Below the pieces are notes generated by a model that was given only the letters and a program-made list of their open reading frames with translations, did no database searches and was not told where the DNA came from. Positions 5,603 to 12,183 of a stretch of 12,232 nt of DNA are shown piece by piece. Position 1 is the stretch's first letter, and each line of letters starts with the position of its first letter. The stretch lies in assembly GCA_900549335.1 (NCBI GenBank), contig UROJ01000019.1, positions 1 to 12,232 on the forward strand, read 5' to 3'. Origin of the DNA: an uncultured Collinsella sp. (GTDB taxonomy: Bacteria; Actinomycetota; Coriobacteriia; Coriobacteriales; Coriobacteriaceae). The translations under genes were made by a program, and so were the position numbers.

Positions 5603-6166
5603 TTAAGGCTCTTTTTTGCTTTGCACGCCCTTGGCCCACTCGGCACTGGCTCTCATGGCGTTCTCGAGGGCCTCGCGCAGTTTTTGGTCTTCGATGGGCG
5701 CCACTTGGCACTCAATCTCGGTGCGCTCGGCATCGCTGAGGTCGGCATGCGGGGCCGGCGGGCGCTCTGTCGTCGCCGGGCGCAGGCGCTCCTTGGCGGC
5801 GGGCGGCGTGTGACCGGGTGCGGTGGTTTTGAACACCAGGCCGTCCACATGCGCACCGGCGCGCTCCATGCGCGCGCGGATGATCTCGCGCAACAGCGTC
5901 ATTTCCTGCGTCCACGAGGGCGAGTCGAGATACACCAGCAGTTCATTGGACTCGGGCAGGTAACGCAGCCCCGTCACATGCCGCCCCTCGCGCGTGCCCG
6001 AGCACACCGCGTTCCACGCGCGATAGACCGCGCGCGACTCCTCGGCAGCCTCCATCTGCGCACGGCGCTCAGGGGTCGCAGCCGCCAGGATGCGTTGGCG
6101 CTCTGCGTTCAAAAAGCCACTGAAGGCGACCGTTTCGCTCTCGCGCTCGTAATTAGCACGTCTCAC
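5603..6166 (-). CDS. dciA: DciA (DUF721), replicative-helicase operator protein
   Basis: This 187-aa product is at the position, just after recF, where Actinobacteria carry the DUF721 gene (Rv0004 in M. tuberculosis). DUF721 proteins are DciA, which assists loading or action of the replicative helicase DnaB in bacteria without DnaC or DnaI. The DUF721 domain spans about 45-113. The typical pattern is visible: WNAVCSG (51-57), a beta-rich part with LLVYLDSPSWTQEM (76-89), then LLREIIRARM and a closing strand ending VFKTT. A Pro/Ala-rich linker (117-141) leads to a charged helical tail (142-183). The GTG start at 6166 overlaps the end of recF by 14 nt, suggesting translational coupling; GGTGGTGA lies upstream. 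A terminator follows. The role is assigned from domain pattern and synteny. Confidence 0.88.
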   Translation of the reverse strand: MRRANYERESETVAFSGFLNAERQRILAAATPERRAQMEAAEESRAVYRAWNAVCSGTREGRHVTGLRYLPESNELLVYLDSPSWTQEMTLLREIIRARMERAGAHVDGLVFKTTAPGHTPPAAKERLRPATTERPPAPHADLSDAERTEIECQVAPIEDQKLREALENAMRASAEWAKGVQSKKEP

Positions 6167-10335: not shown

Positions 10336-10350
10336 TGTTTCTCCCGTTCT

Positions 10351-11703
10351 TTAGCTCTGAGCTCGCACGCGAGCGGCGCCGAGTTCGGTCAGATGGTATT
10401 TCTGGCCATGCTTGATGACCAAGCCAGCCTGCGCCAAGTCATTGAGCGTGCGTGACCAAGTGGGGGCCGAGTTTCCAAACGCCCTCGCCAGATCGGTTGC
10501 ACCGCACGCTTGATTTTGCGCCAAATAGCCTAGTGCGGCGTTGCCGCGATCGCTTACGAACACGTCCGGTTGTGGCTGCGCATACTGATTTGCTGCATTA
10601 GGATACATCATTTGAGCTGCTGGTTGTTGAGAACTCTGCATCGGCGGCACTTGCTGTTGAAAACTTTGAGGCCACTGTTGGTAAGGCTGCGGAGGCATCT
10701 GCTGGGCCCAGGGGTTGTACTGCTGCTGCGGCATCTGCTGGTACGGCTGCTGATATCCCTGCTGGTACTGCTGCGGGAACTGCTGGCCGTACCCCAGCGG
10801 CGGCATCTGTTGATATGGATATCCCTGTTGGTACGGCTGATAGCCCATTTGCTGGCCACCCGGTGCGCCCGTCGCCTGCTGCATTGCTGCTGCATCCTGA
10901 TCCGCCAGCGGCACGGCCTCTGGCATGTTTGGCGGCATCGACATCGATGTCGCCTGGGGCTCTTGTGTGGGAAGCATTCCGGGCTGCTGCATCTGCCTCA
11001 CGGGGGGCTGCATCTGCTGCGTTGCCATGGGCTGCTGCGCAAAAGCTCCCGGCAGGGGATATGTGGGCTGCTCCGTCTCGGGCCGCACGGCAGCACCGCG
11101 TCCGCCGGCACGCTCGATTTCCTGCACTCGTTTAGGGTTCAGGCTTACCGTAACCACGGTGCCGTTGCCCATGTTGTCCTCGATGGATACGGCACCGCCG
11201 GCGTTTTCCAAATACTCCTGCACCATGGGAAACCCTGCTCCGGTTCCACGGATATAGCGCTTCATCTTGCTGTTTGCGCTGGTAACGCCAAAGTCGAAAG
11301 CGCGTTCCTTGTCGTCGATGCCGGGTCCTTGATCAGCAAAGCGGATGGTGTCTCCGCCGTCCAGAATCGAGATGATGGGCTCGGCAAAGTGTGCGTGGAT
11401 AAAGTTTTCGACAATCTCGCGGATGACCATGAGCGAGATATGGCCACCTTGTTCTTTCATGCACTGGTAGACGGTGTTGGTAGTCTCTTCCAAATACGTG
11501 CGGACATCTTGCGGATCAATGACGATCACACGCGGTGTCGACAGCATGTCGTCATAGACGGCGATACGCGCGGCGTACATGGCTTTTGGCGCCTGCGTGG
11601 TCGTCTGCTCGCCTTCCGCACGCTCTTCGCGCACGCCGGTGATGTGCTCGTTGTCGGGTGCCGGGTCTCCAGAATCGACCATGGTGTAAAAGTCATCAGA
11701 CAT
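10351..11703 (-). CDS. GHKL ATPase with Gln-rich linker and C-terminal winged helix, function unknown
   Basis: I recognise domains but no named family. From the ATG at 11703 the product is 450 aa. A GHKL (HATPase_c) domain spans about 70-190: N-box REIVENFIHAHF (95-106), G1 FADQGPGI (122-129), G2 RGTGAGF (152-158). No His-phosphotransfer domain or transmembrane segment is visible, so it resembles SpoIIAB/RsbW-type ATPases more than a sensor kinase. Residues about 220-380 are low complexity, rich in Gln, Pro, Met and Tyr (repeated YQQ, QQM). About 381-447 looks like a MarR-type winged helix (ALGYLAQNQACGATDLARAF ... LVIKHGQKYHLTELG). It precedes dnaA by 15 nt and follows a DnaA-box cluster. 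The start is uncertain: the frame stays open to a TTG at 11775 (474 aa), which lies inside a DnaA-box repeat and lacks a ribosome-binding site. A TTG at 11736 has GGTGAG upstream. Confidence 0.85.
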   Translation of the reverse strand: MSDDFYTMVDSGDPAPDNEHITGVREERAEGEQTTTQAPKAMYAARIAVYDDMLSTPRVIVIDPQDVRTYLEETTNTVYQCMKEQGGHISLMVIREIVENFIHAHFAEPIISILDGGDTIRFADQGPGIDDKERAFDFGVTSANSKMKRYIRGTGAGFPMVQEYLENAGGAVSIEDNMGNGTVVTVSLNPKRVQEIERAGGRGAAVRPETEQPTYPLPGAFAQQPMATQQMQPPVRQMQQPGMLPTQEPQATSMSMPPNMPEAVPLADQDAAAMQQATGAPGGQQMGYQPYQQGYPYQQMPPLGYGQQFPQQYQQGYQQPYQQMPQQQYNPWAQQMPPQPYQQWPQSFQQQVPPMQSSQQPAAQMMYPNAANQYAQPQPDVFVSDRGNAALGYLAQNQACGATDLARAFGNSAPTWSRTLNDLAQAGLVIKHGQKYHLTELGAARVRAQS

Positions 11704-11770
11704 GCCGCTCGCAATCTTCAAAAAGGTTTCGAACAAATAGTAGCTCACCGCGCAATGTTTCTCATCTTTC

Positions 11771-11876
11771 GACAACTTTTCAAAACCTGTTGAAAACTTT
11801 GGAAAACGGGTGAAAAGTTCTCAACATTGCCAACATGACCTGTTGAAAACTCGATGAAATATCGTGAAAAGTTGTC
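11771..11876. promoter_or_regulatory. DnaA-box cluster upstream of the GHKL gene and dnaA
   Basis: Six box-like 9-mers lie within about 95 nt: TTTTCAAAA (plus, 11777-11785), TTTTCAACA (minus, 11788-11796), TTTTCACCC (minus, 11808-11816), TTCTCAACA (plus, 11818-11826), TTTTCAACA (minus, 11841-11849) and TTTTCACGA (minus, 11862-11870). The cluster is bounded by a perfect 11-bp inverted repeat, GACAACTTTTC (11771-11781) and GAAAAGTTGTC (11866-11876). It lies just upstream of the GHKL gene and dnaA, so DnaA bound here could both act in initiation and repress its own operon. I could not assign a confident leftward promoter inside it. Confidence 0.7.
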
Positions 11877-11946
11877 ATGCACCGCTAAATCGAGCTTGGC
11901 TTATGGGGGAACCGTGTGAACTGCGCAACCTTTTACCTTTGATTTC

Positions 11947-11976
11947 TTGACATTTGAACATTGATTTCCCTACAAT
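11947..11976 (+). promoter_or_regulatory. rpmH promoter
   Basis: A consensus -35 TTGACA (11947-11952) is followed after 18 nt by the -10 TACAAT (11971-11976). Transcription would start near 11983, giving a leader of about 65 nt before rpmH. The 70 nt between this and the DnaA-box cluster (11877-11946) hold nothing I can identify. Confidence 0.85.
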
Positions 11977-12002
11977 CTTCAAGCTCACGTGTCTATATCT
12001 GC

Positions 12003-12020
12003 GTCCGCGTCCCCGCGGAC
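12003..12020 (+). promoter_or_regulatory. Hairpin in the rpmH leader
   Basis: A perfect 7-bp GC-rich stem GTCCGCG/CGCGGAC (12003-12009 with 12014-12020) has a 4-nt loop TCCC. It lies in the untranslated leader, about 20 nt after the predicted start of transcription and 15 nt before the ribosome-binding site. There is no T-tract, so it is not a terminator. It may stabilise the messenger or take part in control of translation. Confidence 0.5.
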
Positions 12021-12048
12021 ACTCGAAATGCAGCAGGAGGAACTTAAG

Positions 12049-12183
12049 ATGAAGCGTACGTATCAGCCTAATAAGCGTAAGCGTGCCAAGACCCATGGCT
12101 TCCGTGCCCGTATGGCCACTAAGGGTGGTCGTGCCGTGCTCGCCCGTCGTCGCGCCAAGGGCCGCAAGCGTCTCACTGTCTAG
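12049..12183 (+). CDS. rpmH: 50S ribosomal protein L34
   Basis: L34 is a small, very basic protein of the large ribosomal subunit. The product is 44 aa, the standard length, starting [18 protein letters not shown] and continuing with the conserved [22 protein letters not shown]. The ATG at 12049 has an ideal AGGAGG 8 nt upstream (12035-12040), which decides it over the in-frame ATG at 11989 near the promoter. It has a strong promoter at 11947-11976 and is followed 20 nt later by rnpA, the conserved origin-side arrangement on the opposite strand from dnaA. Confidence 0.98.

Follow-up and report, generated by a model that had tools for sequence, protein, structure and literature searches.

A family of GHKL/winged-helix proteins encoded directly before dnaA in Coriobacteriia and in 16 or more further families of the phylum

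We find that a gene located directly before dnaA in a 12,232-nucleotide stretch of DNA from an uncultured Collinsella sp. (hereafter the window) encodes a GHKL domain joined by a disordered linker to a winged helix, and that this dnaA-linked GHKL/winged-helix family spans Coriobacteriia as well as no fewer than 16 further families of the same phylum. The family is wider than a first-pass annotation of the same DNA had claimed and is not a Collinsella oddity. That annotation knew of no described system with such an architecture in this place; likewise, no description of the gene or of its setting was found in the literature searched, in which matching papers were covered in part. In the simplest reading, the protein would bind DNA under the control of ATP and act as a regulator at the dnaA/origin locus. 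The features of the locus are collected in Table 1.

Table 1. Features of the dnaA-linked locus and of the encoded protein, with positions in the window.
Feature	Position	Strand	Basis or remark
GHKL/winged-helix gene, probable true CDS, 450 aa	10351..11703	-	ATG 11703; start conservation, homologue lengths
dnaA	8611..10335	-	15 nt 3' of the GHKL gene, same strand
rpmH (ribosomal protein L34)	12049..12180	+	divergent from the GHKL gene
GHKL/HATPase_c domain	11131..11580	-	residues 66-215 (474-aa numbering); Pfam, AlphaFold2, alignments
GHKL motifs			474-aa numbering: N-box E120xxxN124xxH127; G1 D148xGxG; G2 G177xGxG181
Q/P/A/M/Y-rich disordered linker	10561..11130	-	residues 216-405; fast-evolving, lineage-specific
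MarR-type winged helix	10354..10560	-	residues 406-474; Pfam, AlphaFold2, fold of a compact homologue
rpmH-GHKL intergenic region	11704..12048	.	DnaA-box-like cluster; candidate origin/dnaA-control region
Head-to-head dyad TTTTCAA-N6-TTGAAAA, two DnaA-like boxes	11777..11796	.	present in gene-less relatives too
DnaA-box-like TTTTCAACA	11841..11849	-	box search

The start of the gene is most likely ATG 11703 and not TTG 11775, from which it had been read at first (10351..11775). The DNA of the 24 codons between these two positions carries indels among relatives, while the protein start M-x-D-D-F-Y from ATG 11703 is conserved in them, and this favours the ATG; the 24 added codons are unconserved, and we moved the start accordingly. 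Many of the 120 homologues among the matches listed are 449-452 aa long. At the other end, the gap of 15 nt between the stop codon and the GTG of dnaA (10336-10350) is confirmed as first annotated, and the two genes probably belong to one operon. In the sources, homologues go under the names of ATP-binding protein, hypothetical protein, HTH protein, anti-sigma regulatory factor and ArsR/TrmB-type regulator.

The position of the gene was compared in 154 genomes. We note that these genomes (106 Coriobacteriia and 48 others) were taken as best matches and spread over genera, and are not a random sample. In all 142 testable genomes dnaA lies directly 3' of the GHKL gene on the same strand, with zero counter-examples; in the other 12 the fetched stretch ended before dnaA. 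Random placement in relatives, which the first-pass annotation would have held against its own reading, is thus not what is seen. This result spans Coriobacteriia and 16 of 18 outside families, the remaining two (f60 and f93) being single genomes with dnaA beyond reach. Divergent rpmH is found upstream in 146 of the 154 genomes, falls outside the stretch in five and has moved in three (G222, G241 and G283). In these three the GHKL-dnaA pair is intact, and the gene is linked to dnaA and not to rpmH. In three genomes of family f2 (loci L100, L104 and L108), rpmH has moved across to the opposite side of dnaA, dnaN is divergent from the GHKL gene, and the GHKL-dnaA pair is kept.

A search of the whole class matched 283 of 296 Coriobacteriia genomes, 19 of them weakly (E 4.5e-8 or worse); these 19 may be other GHKL proteins, and setting them aside leaves 264 of 296 by hand count. 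With a GHKL-domain profile and 296 genomes drawn across the phylum, 119 matched at E 2.1e-15 or better (hand count), 26 in Coriobacteriia and 93 outside, the latter in 18 families (hand count). Nothing fell between 2.1e-15 and 1.4e-8, and the remaining 177 genomes had weak matches or none. The 20 named loci from a genome scan are all from Collinsella, many of them from C. aerofaciens. In a search with the protein of one outside family, the homologues that bore a label were assigned to Actinomycetota or Actinobacteria, Candidatus Solincola and Thermoleophilia (the last of the 70 listed). One of these 70 (P0165) is labelled Candidatus Bathyarchaeia archaeon and is 53% identical to the protein of locus L182; a mis-binned contig is a possible explanation of that label.

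Weak or missing matches were seen in 38 Coriobacteriia genomes, 30 of which we examined. In 20 of the 30, the match to the C-terminal domain of DnaA was missing as well, and absence of the gene is therefore uninformative there; the origin region of these genomes may be unassembled. One further locus lies at a contig edge. In the other nine genomes dnaA adjoins rpmH with no GHKL gene between them, and a search of these nine for a gene remnant revealed no clear one (best tblastn E 0.055). Absence from relatives, the second point that had been named in advance as adverse, thus applies in part, being real in at least nine Coriobacteriia. Two genomes of one genus (L204 and L205, genus g30) are without the gene, which others of the genus carry; in these two the rpmH and dnaA frames are about 0.6 and 1.4 kb apart. 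In other families, the GHKL profile gave no hit at 30 rpmH loci, obtained from 35 genomes that had been selected for having no strong match; dnaA is beside rpmH in 26 of these loci and beyond reach in four.

The architecture first proposed for the protein, a GHKL domain followed by a linker and a MarR-like winged helix, is borne out by Pfam searches and by an AlphaFold2 model. Pfam HATPase_c matches residues 117-213 with E 1.1e-10, over its cut-off. The winged-helix models PF25213 (E 1.5e-7), MarR_2 and IclR match about residues 409-468, all under their own cut-offs; in Pfam, the window protein scores 21.6 bits vs a cut-off of 27 for MarR_2 and 16.1 vs 24.6 for MarR. In the AlphaFold2 model, the GHKL domain (about 66-215) and the winged helix (406-474) have block means of mostly 79-98, and the linker at 235-399 stays under 50. 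The winged-helix DNA-binding fold is present in this model and also in the fold of a compact homologue, for which a family missing from the fold list excludes nothing. Among defence systems, the winged helix gave cross-matches to CARF/CasR/Csa3 and to one SoFic model, none of them with a GHKL part.

The linker (216-405) is composed of 27% Q and 17% P and contains six YQQ units; tandem repeats at 10717-10785 are only weak (best score 67). A regex parse of 143 of the 154 proteins gives median linker lengths of 198 (family f1), 109 (f5), 110 (f2) and 27 (other classes), the longest linker measuring 247. Since this Q-rich segment evolves fast, varies in length and is specific to lineages, we rejected a prion-like linker as a core feature. 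The earlier idea of a functional prion-like or self-association element is unsupported as a property of the family; the linker would instead be a flexible tether of variable length.

Among known systems, sensor histidine kinases lead both the sequence hits (3d36) and the Foldseek list, and they share with the GHKL protein a HATPase_c domain over the Pfam cut-off with N, G1 and G2 motifs. They possess, however, a HisKA/DHp domain with a phospho-accepting His, and no HisKA-type Pfam domain was found at E up to 1 in the window protein or up to 0.05 in ten homologues. A membrane segment is likewise missing (largest 19-residue hydropathy 1.0 in the window protein), so that the statement that the protein has no His-phosphotransfer or membrane part holds. 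GHL ATPases (MutL/GyrB) carry a transducer domain C-terminal to the ATPase, whereas here Pfam gave no match to such a domain and the model shows only the linker and the winged helix in this place. SpoIIAB/RsbW differ from the GHKL protein by its winged helix; the N-box acid and histidine resemble the SpoIIAB/RsbW pattern. The MarR family shares the winged-helix fold, but the GHKL protein remains under the Pfam MarR and MarR_2 cut-offs, is fused to a GHKL domain, and lacks in its model further helices of the kind by which MarR proteins dimerise. GHKL/winged-helix proteins of the DIP2311 type (PDB 3lmm), which have the order AlbA_2-HATPase_c_4-wHTH and belong to COG2865, are distinct in that AlbA_2 and HATPase_c_4 are unmatched in the GHKL protein, both in the window (searched to E 1) and in ten homologues (searched to E 0.05). 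We know of no dnaA linkage for these DIP2311-type proteins. By the features tested, the protein therefore appears to be neither a histidine kinase, nor a SpoIIAB, nor an AlbA_2-type protein.

The motifs of the GHKL domain are nearly invariant. In a regex search of 154 proteins, the N-box ExxxN..H was present in 153, the exception (G296) having Gln for Glu; DxGxG[IV] was present in 152, the other two having DxGxGM; and a G2-like motif was present in 151, one of these being a misparse. In addition, 29 columns are invariant among 31 aligned GHKL domains of Coriobacteriia. These motifs back the predicted ATP binding of a domain that had been annotated as ATP-binding from the outset. Measured against the window, dN/dS is about 0.01 for the GHKL domain, 0.03-0.09 for the winged helix and 0.18-0.21 for the linker in seven distant sequences of Collinsella; three of them duplicate the values of another, which leaves about four distinct ones. 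Six close sequences give noisier values of 0-0.16 for the GHKL domain and 0.11-0.44 for the linker.

Distances between GHKL proteins follow those between DnaA proteins, with a Mantel r of 0.75 in 98 genomes (of 122 with both proteins, f1 having been thinned to 14) and 0.06 as the largest of 999 permutations. Within groups, r is 0.72 in f5 and 0.84 in other classes; in f2 the correlation is weak (r 0.60 vs 0.56 for the largest permutation; 13 genomes). The correlation fits vertical descent and is by itself no proof of interaction. At the level of sequence comparison, these data show purifying selection and co-inheritance with DnaA.

In the winged helix, an Arg of the recognition helix is present in 139 of 154 proteins but in only 2 of 16 in f2, and a wing-position Arg in 98 of 154; the window protein has a Tyr at this wing position and a Lys beside it. 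These counts led us to drop two supposedly invariant arginines, a claim that came from 26 aligned rows with three Coriobacteriia only and the window not included. A basic residue within the wing, on the other hand, is found in 153 of 154 proteins. The core of the recognition helix differs by lineage: it is of a TWSR type in f1 and f5, of a STAYRDL type in many proteins of other classes, and mostly without Arg in f2. The DNA specificity of the winged helix may thus differ between lineages, and the scarcity of the recognition-helix Arg in f2 makes one shared DNA site unlikely. The annotated DNA-binding winged helix keeps its predicted fold and its basic wing, which speak for likely DNA binding, although most f2 proteins have lost the recognition-helix Arg.

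Upstream of the gene, the statement that it begins beside a cluster of DnaA boxes agrees with our counts for the window and for relatives. The word TTWTNCACA, with at most one mismatch, occurs 19 times in the window vs 7.25 expected, and 0 of 200 shuffles reached as many. In the rpmH-GHKL gap, TTTTCAACA is found in 41 of 43 genomes of f1 and 23 of 33 of f5, TTTTCCACA in 13 of 13 of f2 and TTATCCACA in 22 of 44 of other classes; the same words occur within the dnaA coding sequence in 0/43, 1/32 (f5), 1/15 (f2) and 0/41, respectively. Such DnaA-box-like words rank with the most widely shared 9-mers of this gap. Elsewhere in the window, the gene at 5603-6166 between recF and gyrB matches DciA (Pfam PF05258, E 2.8e-6), a replicative-helicase operator.

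The dyad of Table 1, generalised as TTWTCMA-N6-TKGAWAA, occurs in the rpmH-GHKL gap of 40/43 genomes in f1, 7/33 in f5, 6/13 in f2, 2/7 in the order's other families, 3/6 in the class's other orders and 27/42 in other classes. It is rarer in the dnaA-dnaN gap (0/4, 2/28, 0/8, 1/7, 0/5 and 3/35 in the same order), an enrichment that is partly circular since these very sequences had supplied the pattern. The dyad is also carried by 10 of 22 rpmH-dnaA gaps of gene-less relatives, and it is therefore not assignable to the GHKL protein; we rejected it as a winged-helix operator. Weak occurrences were noted in three of the nine gene-less Coriobacteriia, all of one genus. More probably, the dyad is an ancient pair of DnaA boxes belonging to the control region of dnaA; it recurs head-to-head in the phylum whether or not the GHKL gene is present, and may represent an old element of dnaA autoregulation or of the origin. 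The motif comparison of the rpmH-dnaA region found no operator specific to the GHKL/winged-helix protein.

From this evidence we infer, with about even confidence, that the protein is cytosolic and that, under nucleotide control, it binds DNA and regulates the dnaA operon or the adjoining origin. On binding ATP, the GHKL domain would change its dimeric or open/closed state and thereby govern the binding of the winged helix to DNA in the rpmH-dnaA control/origin region. Consequently, transcription of dnaA, or the access of DnaA to its boxes, would follow the nucleotide state of the cell, and in f2 the altered recognition helix would lead to a different DNA site. Of the regulator proposed in the first-pass annotation, ATP-responsive and acting on dnaA or the origin, what stands is a GHKL/winged-helix protein tied to dnaA; regulation itself stays conditional, the sole candidate operator being found in gene-less relatives too. 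A broader form of this reading, an old and previously undescribed ATP/ADP-responsive GHKL switch of replication initiation in Actinomycetota that couples nucleotide state to dnaA expression or to DnaA action at the neighbouring origin, is tentative.

Transcription need not be what the protein acts on. It could load on oriC via its winged helix as a direct partner of DnaA or of the origin and act on DnaA assembly or origin opening, and the adjoining DnaA-box cluster, the pairing with dnaA that outlasts separation from rpmH in three genomes and the correlated protein distances all fit such a partner; sequence gives no separation of this role from transcription control, however, and the correlation is also expected from the vertical descent of neighbours. 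We regard such a direct partner as rather unlikely. A serine kinase or partner switch akin to SpoIIAB/RsbW, in which the GHKL domain would phosphorylate or sequester a protein partner, perhaps DnaA, with the winged helix positioning it at the locus, is unlikely. The SpoIIAB model TIGR01925 reaches 24.1 bits vs a 135-bit cut-off in the single homologue, out of five, that lists this model and is not in the best 25 of 43 families for the window protein, and a STAS match at E 1e-3 is missing from 5 of 20 gene-carrying genomes, although the other 15 have one; for these two reasons a classical partner switch would not be general. The GHKL domain may nonetheless act as a kinase on another partner. 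Furthermore, the neighbours of the gene in the window are rpmH and dnaA, and the N-box Glu is replaced in G296. Least probable to us is that the protein is a regulator of unrelated genes and is encoded in the dnaA operon merely to share its level of expression. Such a regulator would agree with a winged helix that in homologues matches MarR, TrmB and IclR types of diverse functions, with a recognition helix that varies among families and with the lack of an own local operator in our search, but one would not usually expect it to keep so constant a position across many families.

Control of DnaA outside a few model bacteria is, to our knowledge, a long-standing gap, and for Coriobacteriia we found nothing on it in the literature searched, where matching papers were covered in part. 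A gene that directly precedes dnaA wherever its position could be tested, across 17 groups made up of Coriobacteriia and 16 families, offers a direct experimental entry point. Shuttle vectors and transformation are reported for E. lenta and other Coriobacteriia (PMC9734109). The protein encoded beside dnaA, with its ATP site and likely DNA-binding domain, may be an overlooked regulator of the timing of replication start.
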